From contig NZ_CP121634.1 in the NCBI RefSeq assembly GCF_029714945.1, positions 2,191,001 through 2,255,000 of the forward strand: DNA of 64,000 nucleotides, in the 5' to 3' direction. The translations under genes were made by a program, and so were the position numbers. This stretch comes from Bradyrhizobium sp. CIAT3101. GTDB lineage: Bacteria; Pseudomonadota; Alphaproteobacteria; Rhizobiales; Xanthobacteraceae. Under the pieces are notes generated by a model. It was not told the origin of the DNA and made no database searches. It worked only from the letters and a program-made list of their open reading frames with translations. Below, piece by piece: positions 43,483 to 60,842 of the stretch. Positions within the stretch are counted from its first letter, which is position 1. Each line of letters begins with the position of its first letter.

Positions 43483-44382
43483 CTAGCCCAGCTCGATCGG
43501 CGCACCGCGGCCGCTGAGCTCTTCGTCGAGGCGCAGATAATGCGCGAGATAGTCGTGCAGCGCGGTCGCCGCCTTCGAGGTGGCCCCGCTCGATTTGTAG
43601 AGCAGCAACTCGATCTTCGGCAGCGGCGGCAGGCCTTCGTTCGGCCCGATCTCGCGCATCGCCGGCACCAGCGCGCTACGGCCGAGCACGGTGACCGCCA
43701 TGCCGGCGAAGGCCGCGGCCTGCAGTCCGCCGACGCTTTCGCTGACGCAGGCGATGCGCCAGCGCAGATTGGCGCGCTCCAGCGTATCGATGGCGTAGTC
43801 GCGATAGATGTTGCCCGGCGGCAGCAGCGCAAGCGGGATCGGGCGTTCCTGATGCGCGGCGGATTGCTCGCCGGTCATCCACACCAGCTGCTCGCGCCGC
43901 ACCACCTGGCCGCCGGTGAAATCGTTCATGCGGGTGACGAGCGCGATGTCGACATCGCCGCGCTTGACGAGGCCGACCAGCGGCGTCGACAGCGCGCAGT
44001 TGAGCTCGACCTGCACGCGCGGAAACGATTTCCGGAACACGCTGAGGATCTGCGGCAGCATGAATGCCGCGTAGAGGTCGGGCGTGCCGAGCACGACCTG
44101 GCCCTCGATCTCCTGCGACGCCAGCTGCGAGATCAGCTCGTCATGCAGCCTCAGGATGGATTTGGCGTAGGTGAGGACGGTGGTGCCGTCGTCGGTCAGC
44201 GTCAGCCTGCGGCCGCCATGCTCGAACAGCTGCTTGCCGGTCAGCTCCTCCAGCCGCTGCAGCTGCAGCGTGATCGCCGGCTGGGTGCGGCCCAGCCGTC
44301 GCGCGGTCTCGGTGATGCTGCCGGTCTCGACCACCGAGATCAGCGACCTGAGCATGCGGATGTCGAGACTGATGAGGTTCAT
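43483..44382 (-). CDS. LysR-family transcriptional regulator (1)
   Basis: A 299-residue LysR protein. The winged helix-turn-helix occupies residues 8-65 (VVETGSITETARRLGRTQPAITLQLQRLE). The effector domain has the usual two-lobed pattern; VVLGTPDLYAAF starts lobe 1. It lies 46 bp downstream of a second LysR gene on the same strand and is convergent with the amidase operon. Target unknown: either the symporter/PdxA operon or the molybdoenzyme operon. Confidence 0.92.
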   Translation of the reverse strand: MNLISLDIRMLRSLISVVETGSITETARRLGRTQPAITLQLQRLEELTGKQLFEHGGRRLTLTDDGTTVLTYAKSILRLHDELISQLASQEIEGQVVLGTPDLYAAFMLPQILSVFRKSFPRVQVELNCALSTPLVGLVKRGDVDIALVTRMNDFTGGQVVRREQLVWMTGEQSAAHQERPIPLALLPPGNIYRDYAIDTLERANLRWRIACVSESVGGLQAAAFAGMAVTVLGRSALVPAMREIGPNEGLPPLPKIELLLYKSSGATSKAATALHDYLAHYLRLDEELSGRGAPIELG

Positions 44383-44428: not shown

Positions 44429-45397
44429 TCACTTGGCCCGAGACGCAGATGCGGCGGATTTCACGCCCGGCCGGCCCTTGCGGACCGAATTCCAGAAATT
44501 CTCGGCCGCCCGCGTCATGCGGGCGCGGGTGCGGAACAGCGAGACATTGATCGGAATGTCCCATTCGCCCCCGCCGGCCCGCAGCAGGCGGCCATGGTCG
44601 AGATCGGCGCGGACGAGGCTCATCGGCGCCCATGTCACGCCGCGCCCCTCGCGCGCCATGTCGATCAGCAGCATGACCGGCGCGGAGAAGCCGGGAACGA
44701 GCCAGGCCGACGGATCCTTTGCCGCCAGGAACGACGTGACAAGCCGCCCCACGCCCGAGCCCGGGTGATAGGCGAGATAGGGCAGCGGCGCGCCGGATGC
44801 GCCGGGCAGGGGGTAGCGCGGCAGTGCCTTCTTGCTACGGCTGCCACCGCGGCCCGGCTTTGCCGCCGGCGCGCTGATCGGGATCAGCACGTCGGTGGCG
44901 AGATCGATGCGCTGGAAGCGGTCCATGTCGAGCCGGCTCACCAGCGACGGATGGTAGTGCGCCAGCATGAAGTGCGCCTGCGCGTCCAGCAGCAGTTTTT
45001 CGCATCCGGCGAAATTCGAGGCGACGAGCTGCACGGCCGAGCCCGCGCGCGCGCCATCGGAGTTACGGATCCATTCCGGGAAGAAGGTCTGCGACAGCGA
45101 ATGCGTGGCGACGAAGGTGATGGTCTCGGCTTTCAGCCGGGCCACTTCGAGCGCCTCCTCGCGGCCGACCAGCACCCGGCGCAGCACGTCCTCGGCGACC
45201 GGGCGAAAGCTCTCGCCGGCGGCTGTGAGCGTGATGGTGTGGGTCGAGCGTTCGAACAGCTGTGTCCCCAGCCAGTCCTCGAGCGACTTGATGCGGCGGC
45301 TCAGCGCCGGCTGGGTCACGTGCCGTCGCTCGGCGGCGCGGGAGAAGCCGCCCTCCTCGGCGATGGCAAGGAAATCCTCCAGCCAGACCAGGTCCAT
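44429..45397 (-). CDS. LysR-family transcriptional regulator (2)
   Basis: A 322-residue LysR protein, slightly long because of a Lys/Ala-rich C-terminal tail. The helix-turn-helix (residues 5-62) reads EEGGFSRAAERRHVTQPALSRRIKSLE. A basic insert (KPGRGGSRSKKALPR) lies in the effector domain near residue 195. It is divergent from the dicarboxylate-type symporter with a 135-bp gap containing CCG-N3-CGG (45423-45431), so the symporter operon is its most likely target. Confidence 0.92.
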   Translation of the reverse strand: MDLVWLEDFLAIAEEGGFSRAAERRHVTQPALSRRIKSLEDWLGTQLFERSTHTITLTAAGESFRPVAEDVLRRVLVGREEALEVARLKAETITFVATHSLSQTFFPEWIRNSDGARAGSAVQLVASNFAGCEKLLLDAQAHFMLAHYHPSLVSRLDMDRFQRIDLATDVLIPISAPAAKPGRGGSRSKKALPRYPLPGASGAPLPYLAYHPGSGVGRLVTSFLAAKDPSAWLVPGFSAPVMLLIDMAREGRGVTWAPMSLVRADLDHGRLLRAGGGEWDIPINVSLFRTRARMTRAAENFWNSVRKGRPGVKSAASASRAK

Positions 45398-45532
45398 GAT
45401 GCCGTTTCGTCCTCAAATCATACCGATACGGCATTAGCGCCTGACACGCCGCTGGTCCAATGTAAACGCCATCGAAAGACAAGAACGAAGCGCCGTCAAC
45501 GCATGGCGCCGATGCCGTTGGAGGAAAGTACA

Positions 45533-46846
45533 TTGCAGATTGCCGCGACGCCGCTGTCTGAACCCATGGCGAGCTCCACGTCCGAACGCCGCCGCAAGCC
45601 GCTCTGGCGCGAGCAATATGTCCTCGTGGTTGCCGGCGCCGCGCTCGGCGCGCTGCTCGGTGCTCTGTTTCCGAACTTTGCGGTGGAGCTCAAGCCGCTC
45701 GGCGATGTCTTCATCTCGCTGATCAAGATGACCATCGCGCCGCTGATCTTCCTGGTCGTGGTCACCGGGATCGCACAGGTCGGCGACATGAAAGCGGTCG
45801 GGCGCATCGGCCTCAAGGCCTTCGCCTATTTCGAGGTGGTGACGACGATCTGTCTCCTGATCAGCTTCGTCGTGGTGCGCTGGGTACAGCCCGGCGCGGG
45901 CGTCGCGCACGCCACCGCGCAGCAGGCCGAGACGGTCGCGCGCTATCAGCAGGCCCATGTCGGATCGCTGTCGGCCTATATCCAGCACATGGTGCCGGAA
46001 AGCTTCGTCGGCGCCTTTGCCGCCGGCGACGTGCTTCAGGTGCTGGTGCTGGCGCTGCTCTGCGGTATCGGCCTGTTGCTGCTCGGCGAGAAAGCCGGCC
46101 CGCTGCGGACGGGCCTCGAGCGCGTGACCGAGCTCGTGTTCAGCGTGGTTCATGTCGTGGTGGCGCTGGCGCCCATCGGTGCGTTCGGGGCCATGGCGTT
46201 CACCGTGGCAAAATTCGGCGCCGCGACGCTCTATGCGCTGGCACTTCTGGTCGGCACCGCCTGGGCGATGATGGCATTCTTCATCTTCGTCATCCTCGGC
46301 ACCATCTGCCGCCTCGTCGGCGTTCGCCTGATGGATCTCCTGCGCCTGCTGCGGACCGAACTGCTGGTGGTGCTCGGCACCTCGTCGTCGGAGACCGCTA
46401 TTCCCGGCATGATGGAAAAGCTGCCGAAGGCCGGTGTCGGCCGCGCGGTCGCTGGCCTCGTCATTCCCTCCGGCTATTCCTTCAATCTCGACGGCGTTGC
46501 GCTGACGCTGCCGCTCTCCACCATCTTCGTCGCCCAGGTCTACGGTGTCGAGCTGTCGGCCGCGCAGCAGCTGAGCCTGTTCGTGGTGATGCTGTTCACC
46601 AGCAAGGGGGCGGCCGGCGTCACCGGCGGTGCGTTCGCAGCACTCGCTGCAACCGTCGTCGCCGCAGGGCTCCCGGCGGAAGGGCTGGCGTTGCTGCTCG
46701 GCATCGACCGTTTCATGTCGCTGGCGCGTGCCATCACCAACACCATCGGCAACGCAGTCGCCGCGATCGTGGTCGCGAAATGGGACGGCGAATTCAATCG
46801 CGAGGACTGGGTTCAGTCCGCCGCGCAAATCCAGCAAGCGAAGTAA
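45533..46846 (+). CDS. Dicarboxylate/amino acid:cation symporter (DctA/GltP family)
   Basis: A 437-residue SLC1-type symporter. The serine-rich re-entrant loop SSSETAIPGMMEKL and the following PSGYSFNLDG (substrate/cation site in helix 7) are intact. The second hairpin FTSKGAAGVTGGAF and helix 8 DRFMSLARAITNTIGN are also present. Start is taken as TTG 45533 because GGAGGA (45520-45525) sits 7 bp upstream; ATGs at 45503 and 45512 lie before that site. It imports C4-type dicarboxylates or acidic amino acids. First gene of the 45.5-55 kb run. Confidence 0.92.
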   Translation: MQIAATPLSEPMASSTSERRRKPLWREQYVLVVAGAALGALLGALFPNFAVELKPLGDVFISLIKMTIAPLIFLVVVTGIAQVGDMKAVGRIGLKAFAYFEVVTTICLLISFVVVRWVQPGAGVAHATAQQAETVARYQQAHVGSLSAYIQHMVPESFVGAFAAGDVLQVLVLALLCGIGLLLLGEKAGPLRTGLERVTELVFSVVHVVVALAPIGAFGAMAFTVAKFGAATLYALALLVGTAWAMMAFFIFVILGTICRLVGVRLMDLLRLLRTELLVVLGTSSSETAIPGMMEKLPKAGVGRAVAGLVIPSGYSFNLDGVALTLPLSTIFVAQVYGVELSAAQQLSLFVVMLFTSKGAAGVTGGAFAALAATVVAAGLPAEGLALLLGIDRFMSLARAITNTIGNAVAAIVVAKWDGEFNREDWVQSAAQIQQAK

Positions 46847-46863
46847 GGATCCAAGGCTTCAAT

Positions 46864-47898
46864 ATGGCTATCAGCACCAACGAACTTCCTGTCATCGCGC
46901 TGACGCCCGGCGACTGCACCGGCATCGGCCCCGAGCAGATCGCGCGCATCCTCTCGGACGACCGCCTCGCCGATGTCGCGCGTCTCGTCGTGGTCGGCGA
47001 TGCCCGCGTGCTCGACATGGGCATGGAACATGCCGGCGTGAAGCTGAAGGTCGAGCGGATTGCCTCGCCGAAGGCCGCAAAATGGGGCCGCGGCACGGTA
47101 CCGCTCGTTGACTTGGGCAATACCGATCCCGCCAAAATCCCGCTCGGCAAGGCCAGCGCCGAATCCGGTCGGTTGACCGGCGAGACCCTTTCGCGCGCGA
47201 TCGACTTCTCCAAGGCCGGCGAGGTCGATGCCATCACCTTTGCGCCGCTCAACAAGCGCGCGATGTTCGACGGCGGCTGGAAGTTTCCCGACGAGCACAA
47301 GATGTTCGCGAGCCTGCTGGGGCACAAGACCTACTTCTCCGAGATGAACGTGCTCGACGGCCAATGGATGTCGCGCGTCACCGGGCACCAATCGCTGCGC
47401 GAGGCGCTCGACGGCATCAATCCGGCGAGCATCACCGATGCGATCGAGCTGGTCGACCGCATGATGCGGCGGGCCGGCGTCGCCAAGCCGCGCATCGCGG
47501 TCGCAGCTCTCAATCCGCACGCCGGCGAGAACGGCCTGTTCGGCCGCGACGAGATCGAGATGATCCGTCCGACGGTCGAGGCCGCCGCCAAGACCGGCAT
47601 CGCCTGCACCGGGCCTTATCCCGCCGATACCGTCTATATCCGCGCCTTCGCCGGCGAGTTCGACAGCGTGGTCGCGATGTATCACGACCAGGGCCAGATC
47701 GCGACCAAGCTGCGCGGCTTCAACCGCGGCGTCACCGTCACCGCGGGGCTCGAGACCGTCTTCACCACGCCGTCGCACGGCACGGCGTTCGATATCGTAG
47801 GCCAAGGCGTCGCCAACACCGGTGCGCTGGAGAGCGCAGTGCGTCTGGCGGCCAAGCTGGTGTCGATCAAGGTCAAGGAGGCTGCCTATGCGCACTGA
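46864..47898 (+). CDS. PdxA-family dehydrogenase (catabolic paralogue)
   Basis: A 344-residue member of the 4-hydroxythreonine-4-phosphate dehydrogenase family. The N-terminal TPGDCTGIGPE and the metal/substrate segments ALNPHAGENGLFG and AMYHDQGQIATKL are conserved. The region around residues 125-150 (FPDEHKMFASLLGH) departs from biosynthetic PdxA. It does not lie next to ksgA, the usual neighbour of biosynthetic pdxA. It probably performs NAD-linked oxidative decarboxylation of a hydroxy acid. It overlaps the next gene by 11 bp. Confidence 0.88.
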   Translation: MAISTNELPVIALTPGDCTGIGPEQIARILSDDRLADVARLVVVGDARVLDMGMEHAGVKLKVERIASPKAAKWGRGTVPLVDLGNTDPAKIPLGKASAESGRLTGETLSRAIDFSKAGEVDAITFAPLNKRAMFDGGWKFPDEHKMFASLLGHKTYFSEMNVLDGQWMSRVTGHQSLREALDGINPASITDAIELVDRMMRRAGVAKPRIAVAALNPHAGENGLFGRDEIEMIRPTVEAAAKTGIACTGPYPADTVYIRAFAGEFDSVVAMYHDQGQIATKLRGFNRGVTVTAGLETVFTTPSHGTAFDIVGQGVANTGALESAVRLAAKLVSIKVKEAAYAH

Positions 47899-49342
47899 TC
47901 GCAGGACTCTGCTCCAGGCGGCGGCCGCGCTGCCGCTCGCGACCGTCGGCGCCGACGCTGCCTTTGCACAAAATTCGGCTGCGGCTCCTGTCGCGGTGCC
48001 TCCGAAAGACGTCACGCGCGCACTGGCGCATTATCTCGTCAACGCGCAGTACGACGACTTGCCGGCCAATGTCCGAAAAGAGGGCATGCGGACGCTGCTG
48101 AACTGGGTCGGCGTCGCCATCGGCGGATCGCATCACGAGACGGTCGATATCGCGGTGTCCGCGCTCGGCCCGTTCTCCGGGCCGCAGCAGGCTTCCCTGT
48201 TCGGACGGCGTGAGCGGTTCGACATCATGAACGCCGCCTTCATCAACGGCGTGTCGAGCCACATCTTCGACTATGACGATACGCATCTGAAGACGATCAT
48301 CCATCCGGCCGGTCCCGTGGCCTCGGCGATCCTCGCGCTGTCGGAAATGCAGCCGGTCTCGGGCAAGGACTTCCTCAACGCGCTCGTGCTCGGCGTCGAG
48401 ACAGAGTGCCGGATCGGCAACTCGGTCTACCCGAACCACTACGATGTCGGCTGGCACATCACCGGCACGGCCGGCGTGTTCGGCTCGGCCGCGGCCATCG
48501 GCAAGCTTCTCAAGCTCAACGAGCAGCAGATGACCTGGGCGCTCGGCCTTGCCGCATCCCAGCCCGTGGGTCTGCGTGAATCCTTCGGCTCGATGAACAA
48601 GAGCTTCAATCCGGGCCGTGCTGCCTCCAGCGGCATTTTCGCGGCGATCCTGGCCTCGAAGAATTTCACGTCGTCTGACGCGATGATCGAGGCCAAACGC
48701 GGCTGGGCCAACGCGATCAGCACCAAGCAGGATTACAACGAGATCCTCGGCGACCTCGGCAAGCGCTATGAGGCCGCTCTCAACACCTACAAGCCGTTCG
48801 CCTGCGGTATCGTCATTCATCCCGCGATCGATGCGGCAATCCAGCTCCGCAACGAGAACAAGCTGACTGCCGACCAGATCGAGCGGGTCGATCTCAAGAT
48901 CCATCCGCTGGTGCTCGAGCTGACCGGCAAGAAGACGCCGAAACTCGGACTCGAAGGCAAGTTCAGCATCTATCATTCGGTCGCGGTCGCCATCGTTGAG
49001 GGCGCCGGCGGCGAAAAGCAGTTCAGCGATCGTGCGGTGAACGACCCCACCATCGTCGCGTTGCGCGAGAAGGTGTTCCCGGTCATCACACCCGGCATCA
49101 AGCCGGAGCAGGTCGATATGACCATCGTGCTCAAGGACGGCCGCAAGCTGAACCGGTACATCGAGCATGCGATCGGCAGCGTCGAGGTGCCGATGACCGA
49201 CAAGCAGCTCGAAACCAAGTTCTCCGACCTTGCCGACGGCATCATTCCCGCGGCGACCATCCGGCGCGTGATGGATGCCTGCTGGGGTGTCGAGAACCTG
49301 CCGAGCGCGGCAGAGATCGCCAAGATGTCGGTCGCGGTCTGA
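47888..49342 (+). CDS. MmgE/PrpD-family protein with twin-arginine leader (1)
   Basis: A 484-residue MmgE/PrpD (2-methylcitrate dehydratase/aconitate decarboxylase-type) protein. The N-terminus has DRRTLLQ followed by an Ala/Leu-rich core and an AxA site before QNSAAA, a Tat-type leader. Family active-site landmarks remain: DYDDTH then IHPAGP, the NKSFNPGRA lysine region and IHPAIDA. Family members are normally cytoplasmic, so the leader is unusual. Start ATG 47888 lies inside the PdxA gene. Likely dehydrates a hydroxy tri- or dicarboxylate, here perhaps in the periplasm. Confidence 0.85.
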   Translation: MRTDRRTLLQAAAALPLATVGADAAFAQNSAAAPVAVPPKDVTRALAHYLVNAQYDDLPANVRKEGMRTLLNWVGVAIGGSHHETVDIAVSALGPFSGPQQASLFGRRERFDIMNAAFINGVSSHIFDYDDTHLKTIIHPAGPVASAILALSEMQPVSGKDFLNALVLGVETECRIGNSVYPNHYDVGWHITGTAGVFGSAAAIGKLLKLNEQQMTWALGLAASQPVGLRESFGSMNKSFNPGRAASSGIFAAILASKNFTSSDAMIEAKRGWANAISTKQDYNEILGDLGKRYEAALNTYKPFACGIVIHPAIDAAIQLRNENKLTADQIERVDLKIHPLVLELTGKKTPKLGLEGKFSIYHSVAVAIVEGAGGEKQFSDRAVNDPTIVALREKVFPVITPGIKPEQVDMTIVLKDGRKLNRYIEHAIGSVEVPMTDKQLETKFSDLADGIIPAATIRRVMDACWGVENLPSAAEIAKMSVAV

Positions 49343-49360
49343 TCGCGAGGGAGAGAAGCA

Positions 49361-50797
49361 ATGCGGTCACGCCGCCATTTCCTGCAATCCTCCGGTTCGG
49401 TCGCCGCTCTGGCTGCCACCGGCGGCCGCGTGGCTTTCGCAGCCGGACCGGGCGTGACGGAGCGGCTCGCCCGCTACATGGTTGCCGCGCGGGATCAGGA
49501 GCTGCCCGAGCAGGTGCTGCGCGAATGCAAGCACCGCATCCTCGATACGCTCGGCGCGATGATCTCGGGATCGCGCATGAAGCCGGGCGAGATGGCGCTG
49601 AAATACGTGCGCACGCTCGGCGGCGATGCCCAGGCCTCCGTGGTCGGCTCGGACTTTCGCACCACGGCAGTCAACGCGGCCCTGGCGAATGCGATGTGTG
49701 CGCATGCGGACGAGACCGACGATTTCGAGCCCGTCACCAAGGCGCATCCGGGATGCTCTGTGGTACCGGCCGCGCTCGCGTTCGGTGAGCGGGAGCATCG
49801 CAGCGGACAGGACGTCATTCGAGCCGTCGCGCTCGGCTACGATTTGACCTGCCGCCTGTTGATGGCGCTGGGCCCGGATCTCGTGCGCGGCACGCACCGC
49901 AGCGCCGAGGGAACATCATCGAACTTCGGTGCGCTCGGCGCGGCGGCCTCGCTCGCACGGCTCGACGAGAAGGGGATGCGCTACGCGATCTCCTATTCGT
50001 CGCAGCAGGTTTCCGGCTTGTGGAGCTGGGTGAAGGACCACGATCACATCGAGAAGGCGTTTGACTTCGCCGGCATGGGCGCCCGCAATGGCGTCATGGC
50101 GGTCGACATGGCTCTCAACGGCCTGACCGGTGTCGACGACGTGCTCGACGGCACGCATAATCTCTTCATCGCGCTGTCGACCGATCCGAAGCCCGAGGAG
50201 ATGGTGAAGGATCTCGGCAAGCTGTTCTATGTCACGGAAACCGCGATCAAGACCTTCTCGGTCGGCTATCCCATCCAGTCGCCGCTGGATGCGATGCTGA
50301 CGCTGCGCAGGCAGCACAGCCTCACGCCAGATAACGTCCATAGCATCCTGGTCAAGCTGCCGACCGATGCGATGGGAATTGTAGGCGAAAGCGCGATGCC
50401 AGACGTCAATTGCCAGCACCTCGTGGCGGTCGCGCTGGTCAAGGGCGCGGTGTCGTTCAACGACAGCCATGACGTCGCGCTGATGCACGATCCGAAGATC
50501 CTGGAGCAGCGCGCCAAGGTGACGCTGGTCGGTGACAAGGCGCTTATGGACCCGGCGGCGCCGCGCGGGGCTGTCGTCGAAGTGACATTGGCCGATGGCA
50601 GGAAGGTCGAGCACTTCACGAAATATCCGCCGGGTACCAAGGAGAATCCGCTGAGTACCGAAGCCGTCGCGGCGAAGACGCGGGACCTGATTGCACCGGT
50701 TTTGGGAGGCGACAGGGCCGAGAAGCTGATCGAGCAGGTCAGCAATCTCGAGCGACTGGACGACGTCGGCAAGCTGAGGCCATTGCTGACGGCGTGA
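49361..50797 (+). CDS. MmgE/PrpD-family protein with twin-arginine leader (2)
   Basis: A 478-residue paralogue of the preceding protein, 18 bp downstream. Its leader holds a near-perfect Tat motif, SRRHFLQ (residues 3-9), a hydrophobic segment and AFA cleavage near residue 27. Conserved features: HADETDDFEP then AHPGCS, IEKAFDFAGMGARNG and VGYPIQSPLDAM. The two copies differ clearly outside these motifs, so they may form a heteromer or act on successive intermediates. The ribosome-binding site is GAGGGAGAG. Confidence 0.87.
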   Translation: MRSRRHFLQSSGSVAALAATGGRVAFAAGPGVTERLARYMVAARDQELPEQVLRECKHRILDTLGAMISGSRMKPGEMALKYVRTLGGDAQASVVGSDFRTTAVNAALANAMCAHADETDDFEPVTKAHPGCSVVPAALAFGEREHRSGQDVIRAVALGYDLTCRLLMALGPDLVRGTHRSAEGTSSNFGALGAAASLARLDEKGMRYAISYSSQQVSGLWSWVKDHDHIEKAFDFAGMGARNGVMAVDMALNGLTGVDDVLDGTHNLFIALSTDPKPEEMVKDLGKLFYVTETAIKTFSVGYPIQSPLDAMLTLRRQHSLTPDNVHSILVKLPTDAMGIVGESAMPDVNCQHLVAVALVKGAVSFNDSHDVALMHDPKILEQRAKVTLVGDKALMDPAAPRGAVVEVTLADGRKVEHFTKYPPGTKENPLSTEAVAAKTRDLIAPVLGGDRAEKLIEQVSNLERLDDVGKLRPLLTA

Positions 50798-50837
50798 CGA
50801 TTCAATCAACAACAAAACAAACATCAAGGAAGTGCCC

Positions 50838-51809
50838 ATGCGCGGGGTTATGCGACGCACCTTTCTGGTCGCCTGCGCGGCCGTCCTATTCTCCGGCGTT
50901 GCGGGTGCGCAGGATTATCCCTCCCGGCCCGTCAAGATCATCGTGCCGTTCCCGGCCGGCGGGTCCAACGACATCATCGCCCGCATCGTTGCCCAGAAGC
51001 TGACCGAGCGGAACGGTCAGAATTTCTTGGTGGAGAACCGTGGTGGTGCCGGCGGCAATATCGGCGCCGAGGCGGTCGCAAGCGCAGAGGCCGACGGCTA
51101 TACCCTGTTGCTGACCGCGCCGCCGCCGCTGACGATCAACGGTTCCCTCTACAAGAAGCTGCCGTTTGATCCGGCAAAGGCCTTTGCGCCGGTGGCGCTG
51201 ATTGCCTCGGTGCCGATCGTGCTGGTCGTCAATCCTTCGGTGCAGGCGAAGAATGTCGGCGAGCTGATTGCGCTGGCCAAGGCCAAGCCGGGCACGCTGA
51301 ATTTCGGCTCGTCGGGTATCGGGTCGACCAATCATCTCGCCGGCGAGCTGCTGAAGAGCATGGCCGGCATCGATATCGTGCACGTGCCGTATCGTGGTGC
51401 GGCGCCGGCGATGAACGATCTGCTTGCGGGCCAGATCCCCTTCATATTCGACAACATGCCGGCAGTGCTGCCGCAGGTGCAAGGCAAGGCCATCAACGCG
51501 ATCGCGGTGGCCGGTGCCAAGCGGGCGGAAGCGCTGCCTGATGTGCCGACGGTCGGCGAGACCGTGCCGGGCTTCGAGGCCTCCTCCTGGTTCGGACTGG
51601 TGGCGCCGGCCAAGACGCCTGCGCCGGCGCTCGCCAAGCTGAGCGGCGAGCTCGAGACGATCCTGAAGATGCCTGACGTCAAGAAGCGGCTTGCCGAGCT
51701 CGGGGCCGAGCCCGGCACGGTGTTCGGCGATGCGTTCGGGCAATTCATGACGGACGAGACTGCAAAGTGGGGCAAACTCGTCAAAGCCTCCGGCGCCACA
51801 GTGGACTGA
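50838..51809 (+). CDS. Tripartite tricarboxylate transporter (Bug) substrate-binding protein
   Basis: A 323-residue TctC/Bug-family periplasmic protein. The Sec signal covers residues 1-23 (two Arg, hydrophobic core, AGA before QDYP). The mature start YPSRPVKIIVPFPAGGSNDIIARI is diagnostic; the loop NRGGAGGNIGAEAVA and the FDNMPAVLPQ region also fit. ATG 50838 follows AAGGAAG. No TctA/TctB membrane genes occur in the window, so it is an orphan binding protein that must share a distant transporter or signal instead. Confidence 0.93.
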   Translation: MRGVMRRTFLVACAAVLFSGVAGAQDYPSRPVKIIVPFPAGGSNDIIARIVAQKLTERNGQNFLVENRGGAGGNIGAEAVASAEADGYTLLLTAPPPLTINGSLYKKLPFDPAKAFAPVALIASVPIVLVVNPSVQAKNVGELIALAKAKPGTLNFGSSGIGSTNHLAGELLKSMAGIDIVHVPYRGAAPAMNDLLAGQIPFIFDNMPAVLPQVQGKAINAIAVAGAKRAEALPDVPTVGETVPGFEASSWFGLVAPAKTPAPALAKLSGELETILKMPDVKKRLAELGAEPGTVFGDAFGQFMTDETAKWGKLVKASGATVD

Positions 51810-51819
51810 GGAGCGCGTC

Positions 51820-52608
51820 ATGGATCTGAATCTGGGCGGCAAGGTTGCCGTCGTCACCGGCGGCAGCATCGGCATCGGCCGGGCCATTGCTGCCGAGCTT
51901 GCGCGCGAGCAGGCGCATGTCGTCATCGTGGCCCGCGATGCCGAGCGCCTTGCCGCGTCCGCGCAAGACATGTCGCGGGACACCGGCCGGCGGGTGATTG
52001 CTTGTGCCGGCGACATGACCAGGCCGGACGACATCGCCCGCGCAATGGATACCGCGCGCGAGGTCTTTGGCCGCGTCGACATCCTCGTCAATAATGCCGG
52101 CGCCTCGCCGATGGGCCGGATCGCGGAAACGCCTGATGCGATCTGGGCCAAGTCGATCGAGCTGAAACTGCTGGGCTACATGCGTTGTGCGCGCAATGTG
52201 CTGCCGGAGATGCGCGACCGCCGCTGGGGACGCATCATCAACATCATCGGTCGCAGCGGGCATCAGCCGCGCGCGGCCTATATGGCGGGCGGCGCGGTCA
52301 ACGCGGCGCTGCTCAACTTCACGCTCGCGCTCGCCGAGGAATGCGCGCCTGACAATGTGCTGGTTACCGGCGTCAATCCCGGTCCGGTGCAGACCGATCG
52401 CTGGGACAGCCTGATCTCCCAGGGGGCGGCCATCTCCGGACAGGATCAGGGCGCAACCAATGCGGCAGCCATCGCCTCGGTTCCGCTTGGCCGCGTTGGA
52501 CAACCGGACGAGGTGTCGGGGATCGTTGCGTTCCTCTGTTCAGACCGCGCATCCTTCATTACGGGTACCTGCATCAATGTCGATGGCGGTGGAACGAGGT
52601 GTATCTGA
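51820..52608 (+). CDS. SDR-family protein lacking the canonical YxxxK lysine
   Basis: A 262-residue short-chain dehydrogenase fold with an intact cofactor loop TGGSIGIG (13-20) and NNAGAS (91-96). The catalytic Tyr154 is present, but position +4 is Gly158 instead of Lys (YMAGG). The usual Ser 13 residues before Tyr is Asn141. A Ser146 is nearer. It may be a divergent subfamily with altered chemistry or a non-catalytic member. It overlaps the next gene by 1 bp (TGATG) and lies 10 bp after the Bug protein gene. Confidence 0.85.
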   Translation: MDLNLGGKVAVVTGGSIGIGRAIAAELAREQAHVVIVARDAERLAASAQDMSRDTGRRVIACAGDMTRPDDIARAMDTAREVFGRVDILVNNAGASPMGRIAETPDAIWAKSIELKLLGYMRCARNVLPEMRDRRWGRIINIIGRSGHQPRAAYMAGGAVNAALLNFTLALAEECAPDNVLVTGVNPGPVQTDRWDSLISQGAAISGQDQGATNAAAIASVPLGRVGQPDEVSGIVAFLCSDRASFITGTCINVDGGGTRCI

Positions 52609-53426
52609 TGGCTAGCGAACTGCGGAAGATCGGTGTCAGCGACGATTGCGAGCTTGCGGTTCGCGTCGACGATTATCTCCTGCCGTGGGACACCAAGCCG
52701 CCGGTCGTGATGCTTCATGGGCTCGCCGAGAGCGGCGAGGCGTTCCGGCGCTGGGTGCCGTATTTTGCCACGCATCATCTGGTGGTGAGGCCCGATCTTC
52801 GCGGCTACGGCGATTCGACGCCGATGCAGGGCACTTATGTCTATCGCTTCGCCGGCCTCGGCGACGATATCATTCGGATGCTGGATGCGCTGAAGCTCGA
52901 TCGCGTGTTCCTGATCGGCGGCAAGATCGGCGGCACGCTGGCGATGTATCTCACGGCCAAGCACCCGGATCGCGTGATCGCGGTTGCCGCGGTCGGCGCG
53001 CCGGCGTCGCTGACCTCGTTCAACGAGCGGGCGCCGACCTGGCGCAAGCAGATCCGCGAGCAGGGCGTCGAAGCCTGGGTCCGCGAGACCACGGCCGGCC
53101 GGCTCGGCTCGTCGCTGCCGCCGGCGGCGTTCGACTGGTGGATCAGCCTGATGTCGAAGACCAAGGCGTCGACGCTGGAAGCGTTCCTTCAGATGGTGCC
53201 GACGGTCGACGTCACCAGCGAGCTCCCGGCCATCAAGCGCCCGGCGCTGGTGATCACCACGACCGGCTCGGGGCTCGGCGACGTTGCGTCCGTGAAGGCG
53301 TGGCAGGAGACGATCCCGGGCTCGAAGCTCGAAGTGCTGCCGGGCGATTCCTATCATGTCGCCGCGACGGACCCCGACGTCTGCGCGCGAAAGGTGCGCG
53401 AGTTCTTCGATCGCGTCGCGACTTAA
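52608..53426 (+). CDS. Alpha/beta hydrolase-fold protein with Lys at the nucleophile position
   Basis: A 272-residue alpha/beta hydrolase fold. The HGLAESG oxyanion loop (37-43), RPDLRGYGDS (61-70) and a late His in GDSYHVA are present. The nucleophile elbow reads IGGKIGGT, putting Lys106 (codon AAG) where Ser, Asp or Cys is expected. Ordinary ester hydrolysis by a Ser nucleophile is therefore unlikely. It is translationally coupled to the altered SDR. Alternatives are a cofactor-independent lyase or retro-aldol enzyme using lysine, or a binding protein. Confidence 0.85.
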   Translation: MASELRKIGVSDDCELAVRVDDYLLPWDTKPPVVMLHGLAESGEAFRRWVPYFATHHLVVRPDLRGYGDSTPMQGTYVYRFAGLGDDIIRMLDALKLDRVFLIGGKIGGTLAMYLTAKHPDRVIAVAAVGAPASLTSFNERAPTWRKQIREQGVEAWVRETTAGRLGSSLPPAAFDWWISLMSKTKASTLEAFLQMVPTVDVTSELPAIKRPALVITTTGSGLGDVASVKAWQETIPGSKLEVLPGDSYHVAATDPDVCARKVREFFDRVAT

Positions 53427-53437
53427 GACGTACAGGT

Positions 53438-53452
53438 CGGGCCATTGGCCCG
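53438..53452. terminator. Candidate intrinsic terminator
   Basis: A perfect CGGGCC-ATT-GGCCCG hairpin lies 12 bp after the hydrolase stop, followed by a weakly T-rich tract. It may end the symporter-to-hydrolase transcript, leaving the fumarylacetoacetase-family gene with its own start. The T-run is poor, so read-through is possible. Confidence 0.45.
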
Positions 53453-53515
53453 CCCGTCGTTTGGCTCTAAGACTGACGTTCCGACAAGAAACGGCGAAAA
53501 TCAGGGAATGACGCC

Positions 53516-54307
53516 ATGACAAAAACCACCCGACGCAGCGTGCTCACTGCCGCAGCCGCGATGACCGCTACAGGCCTCGCAGATGCGTCGCCGGCCGCAG
53601 CGCAGGCTGCGCCCAAGCCGATCTTCCCGGTGCCGATGGTCGCGATCCCGATCGTCGGCGAGACGAGCGTGTTCCAGGTCCGCCGCATTTACTGCATCGG
53701 CCGCAACTATGCCGCGCACGCGATCGAGCGTGGCTCGGATCCGAACCGCGAGCCGCCGTTCTTCTTCCAGAAGCCGACGGATGCGATCCAGAACGTTGCG
53801 ATCGGCGAGGTCGCCGATCATCCCTATCCGTCGCTGACCAAGAACTACCACCACGAGGTCGAGCTGGTCGCGGCGCTGAAATCCGGCGGGACCAACATCC
53901 CGGCCGAGAAAGCGCTCGACCATGTCTATGGCTACGCACTCGGCCTCGACATGACCCGGCGCGATCTTCAGAACGGCATGGCCGCGGAGAAGAAGCCGTG
54001 GGAGATCGGCAAGAGCTTTGACCATGCTGCGGTGATCGGCCCGATCCATCCCGTGAGCAAGACCGGTCATTTCGAGAAGGGTGCGATTTCGCTCGCGATC
54101 AACGGCACCGTGAAGCAGAGCTCGGACCTCAGCAAGATGATCTGGAGCGTCGCCGAGCAGATCGCGAAGCTTTCGGAAGCGTTCGAGCTGAAGGCTGGCG
54201 ACATCATCTATTCCGGAACGCCGGAGAATGTCGGCCCCGTGGCGAAGGGCGATGTGCTGTTGTGCAAGCTCGAAGGCTTGCCCGATATGTCGATCAAGAT
54301 CGTCTGA
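53516..54307 (+). CDS. Fumarylacetoacetate hydrolase-family protein with twin-arginine leader
   Basis: A 263-residue FAH-superfamily protein. The leader is TRRSVLT followed by an Ala-rich stretch and AQA near residue 32, a Tat-type signal rare in this family. The core is intact: YCIGRNYAAHA, FFFQKPTDA, metal ligands in HHEVELVAAL and the Asp of LGLDMTRRDLQ, then KSFDHAAVIGP. Family members cleave C-C bonds or decarboxylate 2-keto diacids such as fumarylpyruvate and oxaloacetate. It lies in the same run as two Tat-leader PrpD proteins. Signal cleavage before the FAH fold is plausible. Confidence 0.87.
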   Translation: MTKTTRRSVLTAAAAMTATGLADASPAAAQAAPKPIFPVPMVAIPIVGETSVFQVRRIYCIGRNYAAHAIERGSDPNREPPFFFQKPTDAIQNVAIGEVADHPYPSLTKNYHHEVELVAALKSGGTNIPAEKALDHVYGYALGLDMTRRDLQNGMAAEKKPWEIGKSFDHAAVIGPIHPVSKTGHFEKGAISLAINGTVKQSSDLSKMIWSVAEQIAKLSEAFELKAGDIIYSGTPENVGPVAKGDVLLCKLEGLPDMSIKIV

Positions 54308-54343
54308 GTATCCGCGAGCCATTCAGTGCTGGAGGGACGTGAC

Positions 54344-55135
54344 ATGTTGCGGCTCGGCTTGATCGCCACGTTGGGATTGGTCGCTCTCATGACCGGTGCT
54401 CCCGAGGTGAAAGCCGAGGGTGCGCTCGAGGTTGCGCCGACGGGAACATTGCGCGTGGCGGTAGCCGTCGGTCCCGCCGCGTCGGCGTTCTGGACGACGC
54501 GCGATCCCGCGACCGGGAAGCCGCGCGGCGTCACGGTCGAACTGGCCAAGGCTGCCGCCGGGATGCTCCACCTTCCGCTGCAGCTCGTCGAATACCAAAG
54601 CTCGGACGAGATCGCCGCTGCCAGCGGCAAGGACGTCTGGGATCTCTCCTTCATGCCGGCTGACGTCAAGCGCGAAGCGTTCGTGGACCAGGGGCCGGCC
54701 TACGTCGCCTATATGAGCGGCTATCTCATCCGCGCGGGTTCGGACATCCGCTCTGTTGCGGATGTCGATCGCGCGGGCATGCGGGTCGGATGCATCGAGG
54801 GAACGTCGACGTCGCGGACGGTCGAGAAATCGCTGAAGCAGGCGAAGCTCACGAAGTTCGTCAAGCCGGAACAGGCGGCCGAGCTGATCGGCAAGGGCGA
54901 GCTCGATGCGCTCGCAATGGGCATGGGGGCGCTGGAAGACCTCTCGCGAAAACTGCCGGGAACGAAGGTGCTGGACGAAGTGGTTCAGTCGACCGGCGTG
55001 GTCGTGGTCGTGCCGAAGGGCAAGACCGTCGCGAAGGTCTGGGCCGCGCAATTCCTGACGGAGGCCAAGGCTGACGGCACAGTCCGCCGTGCGCTCGACA
55101 GCAACGGCTTTACGGCCGACAAGGTCGCGCCTTAG
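54344..55135 (+). CDS. Solute-binding protein family 3 (orphan)
   Basis: A 263-residue periplasmic binding protein. ATG 54344 follows GGAGGG by 6 bp and opens a signal peptide (R3, hydrophobic 4-17, cleavage near KAEG). The mature sequence shows the opening TGTLRVAVAVGPAAS and the hinge VADVDRAGMRVGCIEGTSTSRT. No ABC membrane genes accompany it. It may serve a distant ABC system or bind a product of the nearby Tat-exported enzymes. Confidence 0.88.
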   Translation: MLRLGLIATLGLVALMTGAPEVKAEGALEVAPTGTLRVAVAVGPAASAFWTTRDPATGKPRGVTVELAKAAAGMLHLPLQLVEYQSSDEIAAASGKDVWDLSFMPADVKREAFVDQGPAYVAYMSGYLIRAGSDIRSVADVDRAGMRVGCIEGTSTSRTVEKSLKQAKLTKFVKPEQAAELIGKGELDALAMGMGALEDLSRKLPGTKVLDEVVQSTGVVVVVPKGKTVAKVWAAQFLTEAKADGTVRRALDSNGFTADKVAP

Positions 55136-55684: not shown

Positions 55685-56425
55685 CTACGCCGCCGTCTTC
55701 GGCCGCAGCCGATCCACCGTCCGCGCGATCAACGACGCGACTTCCGCCACCTTCGGCCCGATCCGGAATTCCGGCCCCGCGACGACGACCGACAGGCGGC
55801 GGTCGCCGATCGGCAGCGGGATCGCAGCACCAGCGAGGTCGCGGCTGTAGTCGGCAAAGCTCTGGCAGTAACCACGCTCGATCGAATTGCGCAGCTCGGC
55901 CTCCACCGCCTCGATGCTGATCGGGGTCGACGGACCATATTGCTTGAACTCGATCTTGCGATAGACGGAGTCGCGCTCCTCCGGCGAATATTGCAGCAGC
56001 AGCGCGCGACCGCTCGCGGTGGCGTGGATCGGCACGCGGTGGCCGATGGTGGCGAAATAGCGGATCGCGGCCTGGGATTCGACGACGTCGATGAAGACAG
56101 CCATGACGCCCGCGGGCGCCACGATGGACGCGGTCTCGCCGGTCTCGGCCGAGAGATCTGCGATCAACGTATGCGTCCACGGCGGCAGCGGCTCGACTTC
56201 TGAGATCATCCGCGCCATCGCCAGCCATCGCGGCGTCGGATAGAAGCCGGCGCGCGGCCGGGGTTCGTAGAGATAACCCTTCTCCGACAGCGTCGCGAGC
56301 AGGTTGAAGGTCGACGAGCGCGGCCAGCCGAAATGATCGGCGATTTCGGCAAGCGTCGCCGGCTTCCTCGTTTGTGCGAAGAATTCCATGATCTCCAGGA
56401 CGTTTGCGGCTTGGCGAACGATCAT
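55685..56425 (-). CDS. IclR-family transcriptional regulator
   Basis: A 246-residue regulator. The winged helix is at residues 8-62 (LAEIADHFGWPRSSTFNLLATL). The effector domain has the conserved ATASGRALLLQYSPEE and FRIGPKV regions. Last gene of a four-gene minus-strand operon behind the CitE-like lyase (17 bp gap). It is the best candidate to bind the TTCATA repeats at 59013-59123, which lie between that operon and the TRAP genes. Confidence 0.93.
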   Translation of the reverse strand: MIVRQAANVLEIMEFFAQTRKPATLAEIADHFGWPRSSTFNLLATLSEKGYLYEPRPRAGFYPTPRWLAMARMISEVEPLPPWTHTLIADLSAETGETASIVAPAGVMAVFIDVVESQAAIRYFATIGHRVPIHATASGRALLLQYSPEERDSVYRKIEFKQYGPSTPISIEAVEAELRNSIERGYCQSFADYSRDLAGAAIPLPIGDRRLSVVVAGPEFRIGPKVAEVASLIARTVDRLRPKTAA

Positions 56426-56442
56426 GGTGGCGGCGTTCCGAT

Positions 56443-57294
56443 CTAGCTCTCGCCGAGGATCTTCTTCGCGGCGCGAAGATGCGGCTTGTCGATCATCTGG
56501 CCGTCGAGCCGCAGCGTACCGGAGTTCGGATTGCTCGCGAACGCCGCGATCACCTTCTCTGCCCAGGTGCGCTCGGCATCCGTCGGCGCGAACGCCGCGT
56601 TGACGACATCGACATGTTTGGGGTGGATCAACGCCTTCGCCGAAAACCCGTCGCGCCGCGCCGCGCGCGTCTCCTGCTCGAGGCCGGCGAGATTGTCGAT
56701 GTCGGTATAGACGGTGTCGATCGGTGCGACTTCCGCCGCGGCCGCCGCCATCAGGCAGAGGTCACGCGCGAGGCGATAGGGGCTGTGGAACACGCCGCCC
56801 GAAGCCTTCTCGGTGGCGCCGAGCGAGGCCGAGAGATCCTCCGCGCCCCACATCAGGCCGGCGAGGCGAGGGGAGCAGCCCTTGTAGCTGCCGAGACCGA
56901 AGATGGAGCTTGCCGTCTCGGTCGCAACGCAAACGATACGCGTCGTGCCGACGGCGATGCCGGCGGCCGCCTCCAAGGCTTCGAGCCAGGTCGCGACTTG
57001 CCGCACGTCGTCACCGCCTTGCGATTTTGGCAGCACGATGCCGTCGGGCCTGCCCGGCATCACCGCGGCGAGATCGGTCAGCGTCATGCCGGTATCGAGC
57101 GCGTTGACGCGGACGTAGAGCTGATGCGGGCCGGGTCGGCTCTTCAGCATCGCCAGCGTCAGGGTGCGCGCCTCCGGCTTCTTGTCGGTGACGACGGAAT
57201 CCTCGAGATCGATGATCAGCGCGTCGGCCCTGCCTTCGCTGGCCTTCTCGAACTTGCGCGGGGAATCGCCCGGCACGAACAGCATGGAACGCAT
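56443..57294 (-). CDS. HpcH/HpaI-family CoA ester lyase (CitE-like)
   Basis: A 283-residue TIM-barrel lyase of the citrate lyase beta/malyl-CoA lyase family. MRSMLFVPGDSPRKFEKA is the standard N-terminus. The Mg ligands are the Glu in TETASSIF and the Asp in GAEDLSAS. RVNALDTG binds the acyl group. It cleaves 3-hydroxyacyl-CoA diacids such as citramalyl-, malyl- or beta-methylmalyl-CoA. ATG 57294 overlaps the MaoC stop by 1 bp. With the MaoC hydratase and CoA-transferase it forms activation, hydration and cleavage steps. Confidence 0.92.
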   Translation of the reverse strand: MRSMLFVPGDSPRKFEKASEGRADALIIDLEDSVVTDKKPEARTLTLAMLKSRPGPHQLYVRVNALDTGMTLTDLAAVMPGRPDGIVLPKSQGGDDVRQVATWLEALEAAAGIAVGTTRIVCVATETASSIFGLGSYKGCSPRLAGLMWGAEDLSASLGATEKASGGVFHSPYRLARDLCLMAAAAAEVAPIDTVYTDIDNLAGLEQETRAARRDGFSAKALIHPKHVDVVNAAFAPTDAERTWAEKVIAAFASNPNSGTLRLDGQMIDKPHLRAAKKILGES

Positions 57295-57746
57295 CAGACC
57301 GGCCTCTTGTGCATCATCGCCATGCGGCGGCATTTGCCGACGATCTCGTCGTTCTGGTTCAAGGCATGATGCTCGAACTCGACGATGCCCGCCTTCGGGC
57401 GCGATTTGGATTCCCTCAACGAAAGCACCTTCGTCGTCGCCCGCAAGGTGTCGCCATGGAAGACCGGTTTTGGAAAAGTCACGTCGGTCATGCCGAGATT
57501 GGCAACGGTGGTGCCCATGGTCGTATCATAGACCGTCATGCCGATCATGATGCCGAGGGTGTAAAGGCTGTTGAAAATGCGCTGGCCGAACTCGGTCTTT
57601 TCCGAGAAATGCGCGTCGATATGCAGCGGCTGCGGATTGAGCGTCAGCAGGCTGAACATGGTGTTGTCCATTTCCGTGACGGTCCGGGTCAGCGGATGCC
57701 TGAACTCCTGGCCCACGGAAAAGTCCTCGAAATAAAGTCCGGCCAT
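57294..57746 (-). CDS. MaoC-family hydratase/dehydratase
   Basis: A 150-residue single hot-dog domain protein. The active-site helix reads TLNPQPLHID with Asn37 and His42. The Asp of the common GDxNPxH motif is absent, and an extra residue lies before PLH, a variant I associate with mesaconyl-/itaconyl-CoA-type hydratases. It hydrates an unsaturated dicarboxylyl-CoA to the 3-hydroxy ester used by the adjacent lyase. The ribosome-binding site is GGGAGGAA. The neighbour spacing is 45 bp upstream and a 1-bp overlap downstream. Confidence 0.9.
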   Translation of the reverse strand: MAGLYFEDFSVGQEFRHPLTRTVTEMDNTMFSLLTLNPQPLHIDAHFSEKTEFGQRIFNSLYTLGIMIGMTVYDTTMGTTVANLGMTDVTFPKPVFHGDTLRATTKVLSLRESKSRPKAGIVEFEHHALNQNDEIVGKCRRMAMMHKRPV

Positions 57747-57791
57747 CGCGTTTTCCTCCCTGTTGTCCTGCGATTTGGCCGGCGCCTGCCT

Positions 57792-58994
57792 CTAGGGCGG
57801 CGCCGCCAGGTGAACTGCCTTCTGCTCCGCCAGCCGTTCGATCTCTTCGGACGAGAAGCCGGCCTCGTGCAAAATGTCGCGGCCATGCTGGCCGAGCGTC
57901 GGCGCCGGGCCGGCGGGCTCCGGCTGGGTCGCGCTCCAGGTCGAGGGCACGCGCATCTGGCGGATGCGGCCCTCCACGGGGTGATCCACCGTCTTGAAGA
58001 AGTCGATCGCCTTGAGATGCGGATCCTCGAGGATCGTCTCCAGCGTGTGCATCGGCATCACCGGAATATCGGCACGCTCCAGCAGCTCGCGCCACTCGGC
58101 GGTGGTGCGCGTAACGAAGACGTGGCCGATCTCCTCGTAAATCTCGTCGATGTGCTTCGTGCGCGCGGCGTGGTTGGCAAAGCGCGGCTGCTCGAGGAAA
58201 TGCGGCTGCCCGATCGCCTCGAAGAAGCTACGCCAGTGCTTGTCGTTGTAGATGAGCACGCAGAGATGGCCGTCGCTGGTCTTGTAGGGCCGGCGATAGC
58301 GCGAGAGCAGGCGAGTATAGCCGCCGTGATCGAGCGGCGGATCGTAGGTCAGGCCACCCAGATGATCGACCAGCACGAATTCGGTCATCGATTCGAACAT
58401 CGGTACGTCGATGCGCTGGCCCTGGCCGGTGCGTTGCTGGTGCATCAAGCCGCCCATGACGGCGTTCACCATCATCAGCCCGACGATGCGATCGGCGATG
58501 GTGACGGGGACGTAGCGCGGCGTGCCGTCGCCGGCTGCCGCAAGCAGCGTCGGAATGGTCGCCGCGCCCTGGATCAGATCGTCATAGGCAGGCTTGGCGG
58601 CATAGGGGCCGGACTGGCCGTAGCCGAACGCGCCGACATAGACCAGCGACGGATTGATCGCGGCGAGCGTCTCGTAGTCGAGGCCGAGCCGCGCCATGGC
58701 CTGCGGGCGCACATTGTAGACGAGCGCGTTGGCGCTTTTCGCCAGCCGCAACAGCGTATCGCGCGCCTCTGGCTTCTTGAGGTCGAGCACGATGCTGCGC
58801 TTGCCGCGATTGGCATTGTGGAACATCCCGCCCATGCCGGGCGTGCGGCCGGGACCGATCTGGCGAACGATGTCGCCTTCGGGGCTTTCGACCTTGATGA
58901 CGTCAGCGCCCATGTCGGCCAGCACCTGGGTGCCGTAGGGGCCCATCAGCACCGAAGTCAGGTCGAGAATGGTGAAGCCGGCGAGCGGTCCCAT
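57792..58994 (-). CDS. CaiB/BaiF-family (class III) CoA-transferase
   Basis: A 400-residue class III CoA-transferase. Catalytic Asp168 lies in VTIADRIVG, the same place as Asp169 of formyl-CoA transferase. The N-terminal ILDLTSVLMGPYGTQVLADMGADVIKVE and the GQGQRIDVPMFE segment are also characteristic. It moves CoA from a donor such as succinyl-CoA to the imported acid. First gene of the minus-strand operon, divergent from the TRAP transporter across a 228-bp control region. Confidence 0.93.
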   Translation of the reverse strand: MGPLAGFTILDLTSVLMGPYGTQVLADMGADVIKVESPEGDIVRQIGPGRTPGMGGMFHNANRGKRSIVLDLKKPEARDTLLRLAKSANALVYNVRPQAMARLGLDYETLAAINPSLVYVGAFGYGQSGPYAAKPAYDDLIQGAATIPTLLAAAGDGTPRYVPVTIADRIVGLMMVNAVMGGLMHQQRTGQGQRIDVPMFESMTEFVLVDHLGGLTYDPPLDHGGYTRLLSRYRRPYKTSDGHLCVLIYNDKHWRSFFEAIGQPHFLEQPRFANHAARTKHIDEIYEEIGHVFVTRTTAEWRELLERADIPVMPMHTLETILEDPHLKAIDFFKTVDHPVEGRIRQMRVPSTWSATQPEPAGPAPTLGQHGRDILHEAGFSSEEIERLAEQKAVHLAAPP

Positions 58995-60248: not shown

Positions 60249-60275
60249 TCCGCAAATCGGAGAAGGAGGCGCGAC

Positions 60276-60830: not shown

Positions 60831-60842
60831 CGGCGGATATCC

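Follow-up and report, generated by a model that had tools for sequence, protein, structure and literature searches.

A locus of Bradyrhizobium sp. CIAT3101 encodes two proteins of the MmgE/PrpD family, which we named PrpD1 and PrpD2, and a fumarylpyruvate-hydrolase-like protein (FAH), all of which begin with a twin-arginine translocation (Tat) leader located outside the enzyme fold. The locus lies in a stretch of 64,000 nt (contig NZ_CP121634.1, positions 2,191,001 to 2,255,000), hereafter the window, of a host genome of 9.37 Mb in one contig; its genes are listed in Table 1. Judged from their sequences, the three proteins are very probably exported. We further propose, at roughly even chances and again from sequence, that PrpD1 and PrpD2 act together in the periplasm on a substituted four-carbon dicarboxylate before its uptake. 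With chances just short of even, two MmgE/PrpD lineages could have acquired a periplasmic location independently and later been combined into a mobile unit of two genes for extracytoplasmic stereo-inversion and elimination or decarboxylation of substituted dicarboxylates, which would widen carrier uptake in soil and plant bacteria.

The leaders lie outside the enzyme folds

PrpD1 starts at the ATG at position 47888, which is preceded by AAGGAGG, and its N-terminus reads MRTDRRTLLQAAAALPLATVGADAAFA-Q, while those of PrpD2 and FAH read MRSRRHFLQSSGSVAALAATGGRVAFA-A and MTKTTRRSVLTAAAAMTATGLADASPAAA-Q, respectively. A first-pass annotation, made from the letters of the window alone, had described a twin-arginine (RR) motif, a hydrophobic core and an AxA-like site at the start of each protein, and we found all of them at the coordinates it gave. 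AxA triplets are present, among others, at residues 25-27 of PrpD1, 25-27 of PrpD2 and 27-29 of FAH. Alignment with homologues, which had been proposed as a check of whether the leaders belong to the fold, placed all three outside it. The Pfam fold begins at residue 45 of PrpD1, 34 of PrpD2 and 58 of FAH, and the first residues aligned to PDB chains are 44, 33 and 38 (the last against 6j5y). In a structure model of PrpD1 (27 sequences, mean predicted local distance difference test score, pLDDT, 84) residues 1-35 have a pLDDT below 50, and 11 solved MmgE/PrpD members align to this model only from residue 37-41 onward, which is the family fold. The FAH model has a mean pLDDT of 35 (20 near-identical rows); thus, for FAH the position of the leader outside the fold is based on the 6j5y alignment.

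All three proteins therefore have the features of Tat substrates, namely an RR motif, an uncharged hydrophobic core, an AxA site and a leader outside the fold, and the host genome harbours tatC (200.4 bits, cut-off 132.7). In the Pfam TAT_signal scan PrpD1 and FAH were not listed, and PrpD2 was the only one of the three to be touched, with 19.7 bits as protein (cut-off 22.7) and 25.0 bits on DNA (150 of 250 candidates scored).

The twin arginine is kept while the rest of the leader drifts

To find leaders in relatives we used a Tat-like rule of our own, applied to the first 70 residues of database proteins. Each database search scored 8000 proteins, and the nearest 120 relatives per query were examined. 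The rule was passed by 118 of the 120 relatives of PrpD1, 116 of those of PrpD2 and 119 of those of FAH, and when the misses were read by eye, RR was present in 120, 118 and 119, respectively. Good leaders missed by the rule are those of P0080, P0106, P0164, P0209, L053 and the own-genome protein C1:2343962, while the genuine exceptions are P0142 (none), P0240 (RW), P0328 (RS) and L072 (none in frame). Among pairs of PrpD1 proteins with folds less than 82% identical (80 proteins), the mean identity is 31% in the leader and 77% in the fold; for PrpD2 (26 proteins) the corresponding values are 43% and 75%. The RR is invariant in the leaders compared, but the selecting rule itself demands it. Conservation of RR while the remaining leader drifts is the pattern expected of an evolving Tat signal.

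As a control for chance matches, the rule was applied to the first 40 residues of the other genes (1202) that surround PrpD1 in 80 relatives. It was passed by 39 of them (50 with 70 residues), which is a lower bound, since the codon-based gene caller often trims leaders. On the caller's own starts, only 59 of 79 PrpD1, 8 of 24 PrpD2 and 2 of 13 FAH proteins pass; because of this trimming, leaders were read from stop-to-stop frames. In the window the rule is passed by five of the 58 called genes, including PrpD1, PrpD2, FAH and the Bug/TctC binding protein (Bug).

Distribution of the leader and origins of export

A genome scan yielded 228 PrpD1 relatives, of which the best 80 were retained as loci. 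Among the 84 PrpD1 proteins with at least 70% identity (the best 80, the window protein, L114, L116 and L118) the rule detected a leader in 81. The remaining three are L019, which is cut by a contig end, L053, whose good leader was missed, and L072, with none in frame; L115, L117, L119 and L192, whose contigs are equal in length to those of L019, L036, L073 and L054, were not counted again. Two plasmid PrpD1 loci at 74-78% identity also have the leader. By contrast, none of the 23 loci with PrpD1 cousins at 38-57% has it, and the proteins there begin at the fold. A sample of 120 genomes of the phylum gave 50 MmgE/PrpD matches outside the host (48 read, two below the family cut-off), and no leader was found in any of the 48. 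In the host genome, three of the four MmgE/PrpD genes have a leader and the paralogue C1:16808 does not. The third leader-bearing protein is encoded outside the window at C1:2343362-2344786 (L004), is 42% identical to PrpD2 and starts with MKRRDFLRLTTTG...; under the label C1:2343962 it was read by eye to begin MKRRDFLRLTTTGLALAPARGFAEG, which the rule misses. The picture is similar for FAH: of the 15 FAA_hydrolase genes in the host, 14 (all except L156) were read up to the region of the start, and a leader was present in the window FAH alone, while the leader is present in 15 of 15 fetched FAH relatives at 75-94% identity and in 16 of 20 over the whole range of 49-94%. In line with the earlier statement that both families are normally cytosolic, leaders are otherwise absent from these samples (0/48 MmgE/PrpD proteins; 1/14 FAA_hydrolase genes, the one being the window FAH).

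In a tree of 99 proteins, from which sequences shorter than 380 residues and identical copies had been dropped, the exported PrpD1 proteins form one clade (support of 100 in the Shimodaira-Hasegawa-like approximate likelihood ratio test, SH-aLRT) nested among leaderless relatives, and the exported PrpD2 proteins form another; at least three leader changes are required. A single origin of export for PrpD1 and PrpD2 was rejected by approximately unbiased (AU) tests of three groupings. The p value was 1.9e-47 when the clade comprised just the PrpD1 and PrpD2 rows and excluded the third exported host protein, 1.8e-40 for all 14 exported rows as one clade, and 2.4e-4 for the fairest grouping, in which the leaderless sister L133 was admitted. 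These groupings were named after the tree had been seen, and the tests used quick trees under a plain model with 12 long-branch rows and about half of the leaderless rows left out. Since exported PrpD1 and PrpD2 fall in separate clades, the sequences indicate that the export leader was gained at least twice in the MmgE/PrpD family. Distant PrpD2 relatives (40-45% identity) form a clade of 26 rows (SH-aLRT 100), comprising 23 exported proteins, two that are not and one unclear case; in this tree, too, 12 long-branch rows were dropped, the labels of L192-L211 were set by eye and L203 is unlabelled. One such distant exported relative (L208) is located near a PdxA gene whose product is 65% identical to that of the PdxA-like gene of the window.

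Folds, active sites and known relatives

The Pfam N and C domains of the MmgE/PrpD family are matched by PrpD1 with 268.2 and 135.2 bits and by PrpD2 with 179.1 and 101 bits (cut-off 32.1). An identity as 2-methylcitrate dehydratase PrpD was rejected: the corresponding NCBIfam models gave 20.7-49.9 bits against cut-offs of 458-950 (49.9/950, 35.2/575 and 28.6/458). Iminodisuccinate (IDS) epimerase (PDB 2hp0, 2hp3), the aligned chains of which have no Tat leader, is 26% identical over the aligned fold. The PrpD1 equivalents of its active-site residues H99, Y145, H150, K198 and K266 are H139, Y185, H190, K238 and K302, and they are present in 84, 82, 83, 84 and 84 of the 84 sequences. PrpD2 has the equivalents H129, H179, K232 and K297 and no Tyr at the epimerase place; in 27 PrpD2 sequences the five positions are occupied by His (27), Leu (26), His (25), Lys (27) and Lys (27). 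The catalytic His and two Lys are thus found in every PrpD1 and PrpD2 sequence compared. Judged by these residues, PrpD1 resembles an epimerase or isomerase, and PrpD2 would catalyse a different reaction.

For MmgE/PrpD enzymes, PMC12290011 and PMC7347537 describe catalysis by two bases, His and Tyr, and an enolate step in common. The (S)-(R)-methylsuccinate isomerase (PA0881 and its relatives) is a member of the same family with the same His/Tyr pair and Lys residues as PrpD1 (PMC12290011), and growth evidence for PA0881 was reported (PMC9875883). Compared by description only, PrpD1 differs from it by the Tat leader and by its neighbours. For the characterised MmgE/PrpD enzymes, export is not mentioned in the available part of PMC12290011, and the words periplasm, Tat and signal are absent from its main text. 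Cis-aconitate decarboxylase (IRG1/ACOD1) is 24-25% identical to PrpD1, and its aligned chains begin at the fold. The closest solved relatives of FAH are fumarylpyruvate-hydrolase-like (PDB 6j5y, 4maq) and align over the entire fold; the window protein has the Tat leader in addition, which its nearest own-genome paralogue (51-53%) lacks. An opine link was not retained and is a lead only (PMC6733357). A full-text literature search found no exported MmgE/PrpD or FAH protein, but since it covered few subscription papers, such reports may still exist. Aconitate isomerase is a periplasmic acid-converting enzyme, although it did not come up in this search.

PrpD1-PrpD2 pairs in other genomes

Of the 80 loci, 25 have PrpD2 adjoining PrpD1, and both gene orders occur. 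The paired loci belong to Bradyrhizobium (16), Burkholderia/Paraburkholderia (4, all with the order reversed), Tardiphaga (2), Pseudomonas (2) and Methylobacterium (1). Among 248 genomes of the family, where at most six candidates were scored per genome and counts are uncorrected for kinship, PrpD1 (at least 77% identity) was found in nine and PrpD2 (at least 73%) in ten; seven genomes have both, and in six of these the genes are adjacent. In 398 genomes of the phylum, host included, PrpD1 (at least 73%) was found in three and PrpD2 (at least 79%) in two. On plasmid p3 of Caballeronia grimmiae (L189) the PrpD2 and PrpD1 genes overlap by four bases, both products have leaders and a transposase gene is located downstream. 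The pair may thus move as one unit.

A further protein with a Tat-like leader is encoded near exported PrpD1 in four loci, one of Bradyrhizobium and three of Methylobacterium (L023:15405-16403, L034:13439-14494, L038:13477-14481 and L041:12201-13193). The two that were scanned, from L023 and L034, have a metallo-beta-lactamase fold.

FAH is a looser partner in a mosaic locus

FAH follows the PrpD genes in 13 of the 80 loci, all of them in Bradyrhizobium. Two relatives that are more diverged (L018 and L024) also have a Tat-FAH behind PrpD2, in different surroundings. However, FAH also occurs without the pair. In five genomes of the same genus (L168-L172), which have no match to PrpD1 or PrpD2, the Tat-FAH gene is located beside the module of IclR, CitE, MaoC and CaiB genes, whole or in part. 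In L168 it is 134 bp from the regulator gene LysR1 and also beside IclR-CitE-MaoC-CaiB-DctP, and in L172 about 200 bp from LysR1. In the window the same gap between LysR1 and FAH holds 9.1 kb with the genes of LysR2, DctA, PdxA, PrpD1, PrpD2, Bug, a short-chain dehydrogenase (SDR) and an alpha/beta hydrolase (ABH). The idea of one ancestral operon of three enzymes is weakened by the PrpD-free site in L168; the locus is a mosaic, in which FAH is a looser partner of the PrpD pair.

An FAH relative (at least 63% identity) was detected in 66 of the 248 family genomes, eight of which also have PrpD1 at the above threshold. Conversely, it is present in 8 of the 9 PrpD1 genomes and in all 10 PrpD2 genomes; six of these ten belong to one genus, and kinship therefore accounts for part of the co-occurrence. 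The survey that the first-pass annotation had proposed thus gave a divided answer: FAH accompanies PrpD2 (10/10 against 66/248 overall), but it lies beside other genes in the five PrpD-free genomes.

In 9 of the 13 loci with FAH, an exported CxxCH protein of 720 residues is encoded between PrpD2 and FAH. A protein of this type, of about 720 residues and with a weak carboxypeptidase-regulatory domain, is found near exported PrpD2 and/or FAH in L005 (13116-15278) and also in L006, L008, L011, L012, L013, L015, L018, L021, L023, L026 (cut), L173 and L203 (49%, cut). It has no match in PDB or NCBIfam and none in the window or the host genome.

A Bug gene is present within the fetched stretch in 15 of 23 loci with leaderless PrpD1 cousins and in 12 of 80 loci with exported PrpD1, although the latter stretches were longer and the cut-off stricter. 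One reading is that in the leaderless, ancestral arrangement the acid is imported first and acted on inside, whereas the exported enzymes work on it outside and have a looser tie to Bug.

A possible periplasmic route and its alternatives

We propose that PrpD1, PrpD2 and FAH would be synthesised and folded in the cytoplasm and then transported across the inner membrane by the Tat system. In the periplasm PrpD1 would act as an epimerase or isomerase, the His of which takes the proton at C2 from a substituted succinate, the Lys residues stabilise the enolate, and the Tyr gives the proton back on the opposite face. PrpD2, with His and Lys but without the Tyr, would most likely catalyse the loss of water or CO2 from a similar dicarboxylate. 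The resulting compound could be taken up via DctA (or the Bug or the tripartite ATP-independent periplasmic, TRAP, carriers) and then be oxidised by the PdxA-like enzyme, and FAH, which joined the PrpD pair separately, may hydrolyse a 2-oxo acid in the periplasm too. To our knowledge MmgE/PrpD enzymes require no coenzyme A (CoA) or nucleotide cofactor, and they could therefore function outside the cytoplasm. Of the earlier suggestion that part of a carboxylate pathway runs in the periplasm before uptake, the kept leaders outside the folds and the adjacent carriers and binding proteins remain as support, while a single pathway for all three enzymes is only partly borne out. If the proposal is true, a conserved exported branch of the MmgE/PrpD family would perform part of dicarboxylate metabolism outside the inner membrane in various soil and plant bacteria, the name '2-methylcitrate dehydratase PrpD' that many genes bear at present would have to be read differently, and there would be a simple way to test why a cell carries out acid chemistry ahead of uptake.

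Several observations weigh against such a route. A PrpD2-PrpD1 pair beside a transposase gene does not resemble a catabolic operon, and in genera other than Bradyrhizobium many genes for exported PrpD1 are preceded by a lone LysR (14 loci) or GntR gene (7 loci; one of each checked in Pfam), with none of the carriers of the window in their vicinity. FAH is found without PrpD genes and the PrpD pair without FAH nearby. Known catabolic PdxA enzymes mostly use phosphorylated or cyclic substrates, and there is no kinase among the listed neighbours of the PdxA-like gene. Further, the Tyr is replaced by Phe in 2 of the 84 PrpD1 proteins, and in PrpD2 its position adjoins an alignment gap. The Tyr also occurs in 30 of the 57 further family members compared, in each of the six leaderless cousins at about 57% identity, in the host's cytosolic paralogue and in B. 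subtilis IRG1, whose function is unsettled (PMC12290011, PMC7347537). Being common across the family, the Tyr fits an epimerase without singling one out.

The bare pair next to the transposase gene and the PrpD1 genes of Pseudomonas, Pandoraea and Paraburkholderia that are preceded by a single LysR or GntR gene would suit enzymes exported to modify or detoxify an outside acid (itaconate, aconitate, or a plant or fungal acid) and not for feeding, so that a dedicated carrier is unneeded; itaconate is termed an antimicrobial agent in the abstract of PMC12290011. We consider this rather unlikely, since the Bradyrhizobium pair closely follows DctA and the PdxA-like dehydrogenase and the distant PrpD2 relative in L208 is again near PdxA. 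That two unrelated pathways became neighbours and only PrpD1 and PrpD2 cooperate has a somewhat less than even chance in our view. The position of FAH in L168, where the window has the 9.1 kb from LysR2 to ABH, and the abundance of FAH in family genomes, few of which have PrpD1, argue for it, while the nearly constant presence of FAH in PrpD1 and PrpD2 genomes (in part through kinship), the Tat-FAH behind PrpD2 in the other surroundings of L018 and L024 and the exported CxxCH protein between the two genes argue for a closer connection.

Given the shared His/Tyr pair, PrpD1 could also be a periplasmic methylsuccinate isomerase feeding the adjacent CoA-transferase, hydratase, lyase and TRAP genes. 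The region 55685-63337 of the window, including the acyl-CoA dehydrogenase gene, resembles in kind the itaconate/methylsuccinate set of P. aeruginosa, the MaoC protein has a mesaconyl-CoA hydratase domain above its Pfam cut-off, and a Cupriavidus locus has a row of CoA-transferase, GntR, enoyl-CoA hydratase-like (by eye), Bug and Tat-PrpD1 genes. However, the neighbours score far under the NCBIfam cut-offs (RipC 182.8/375, RipB 133.2/340, mesaconate CoA-transferase 216.6/700), the IclR-CitE-MaoC-CaiB module is retained in genomes without PrpD1, and it finds no match in the majority of the 80 loci with PrpD1, which makes this explanation improbable. Finally, the leaders might be unused and the proteins remain cytoplasmic, in line with the Pfam TAT_signal model catching PrpD2 only. 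With RR kept in almost all of the nearest relatives (120, 118 and 119 of 120) while the remainder drifts, and with a leader that is distributed by clade and was apparently gained at least twice, this is highly improbable.

Locus layout and further proteins with leaders

The Bug protein and the family 3 binding protein noted alongside the enzymes in the first-pass annotation are indeed part of the locus, together with the carriers (Table 1). DctA was scored on 45560-46846 and gave 334.8 bits with Pfam SDF and 483.4 bits with NCBIfam DctA (cut-off 513). The PdxA-like gene and PrpD1 overlap by 11 bases, and LysR2 is retained next to DctA-PdxA-PrpD1 in Bradyrhizobium relatives.

Table 1. Genes and leader regions of the locus, in window positions.
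Feature	Position	Strand	Basis and remarks
LysR1, LysR regulator	43483..44382	-	Pfam HTH_1 and LysR_substrate; divergent to FAH in relatives without the PrpD cassette
LysR2, LysR regulator	44429..45397	-	Pfam; divergent to PrpD operon
DctA-type C4-dicarboxylate symporter	45503..46846	+	Start 45503 or 45566
PdxA-like dehydrogenase	46858..47898	+	Pfam PdxA 292 bits; without leader
PrpD1, MmgE/PrpD protein with Tat leader	47888..49342	+	Pfam
PrpD1 Tat leader	47888..47968	+	Residues 1-27, to AFA site
PrpD2, MmgE/PrpD protein with Tat leader	49361..50797	+	Pfam
PrpD2 Tat leader	49361..49441	+	Residues 1-27, to AFA site
Bug/TctC binding protein	50832..51809	+	Pfam TctC 242.1 bits
SDR	51820..52608	+	Pfam; no leader seen
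ABH	52599..53426	+	Pfam; no leader seen
FAH, fumarylpyruvate-hydrolase-like protein with Tat leader	53516..54307	+	Pfam FAA_hydrolase 160.5 bits (cut-off 23.9)
FAH Tat leader	53516..53602	+	Residues 1-29, to AAA site
Family 3 binding protein	54326..55135	+	Pfam SBP_bac_3 35.7 bits; Sec-like leader by eye
Neighbour module: IclR, CitE-type lyase, MaoC hydratase, CaiB CoA-transferase	55685..58994	-	Pfam and NCBIfam
TRAP transporter DctP, DctQ, DctM	59223..62132	+	
Acyl-CoA dehydrogenase	62171-63337		

Elsewhere in the window, the product of the plus-strand gene at 33871-35220, for which no NCBIfam model matched, has a Tat-like leader (SRRTLLKG...) recognised by eye only. Another Tat-like leader (NRRDALTT...), which passes our rule, is encoded at 16308-17144 on the minus strand, and the protein resembles family 3 binding proteins.

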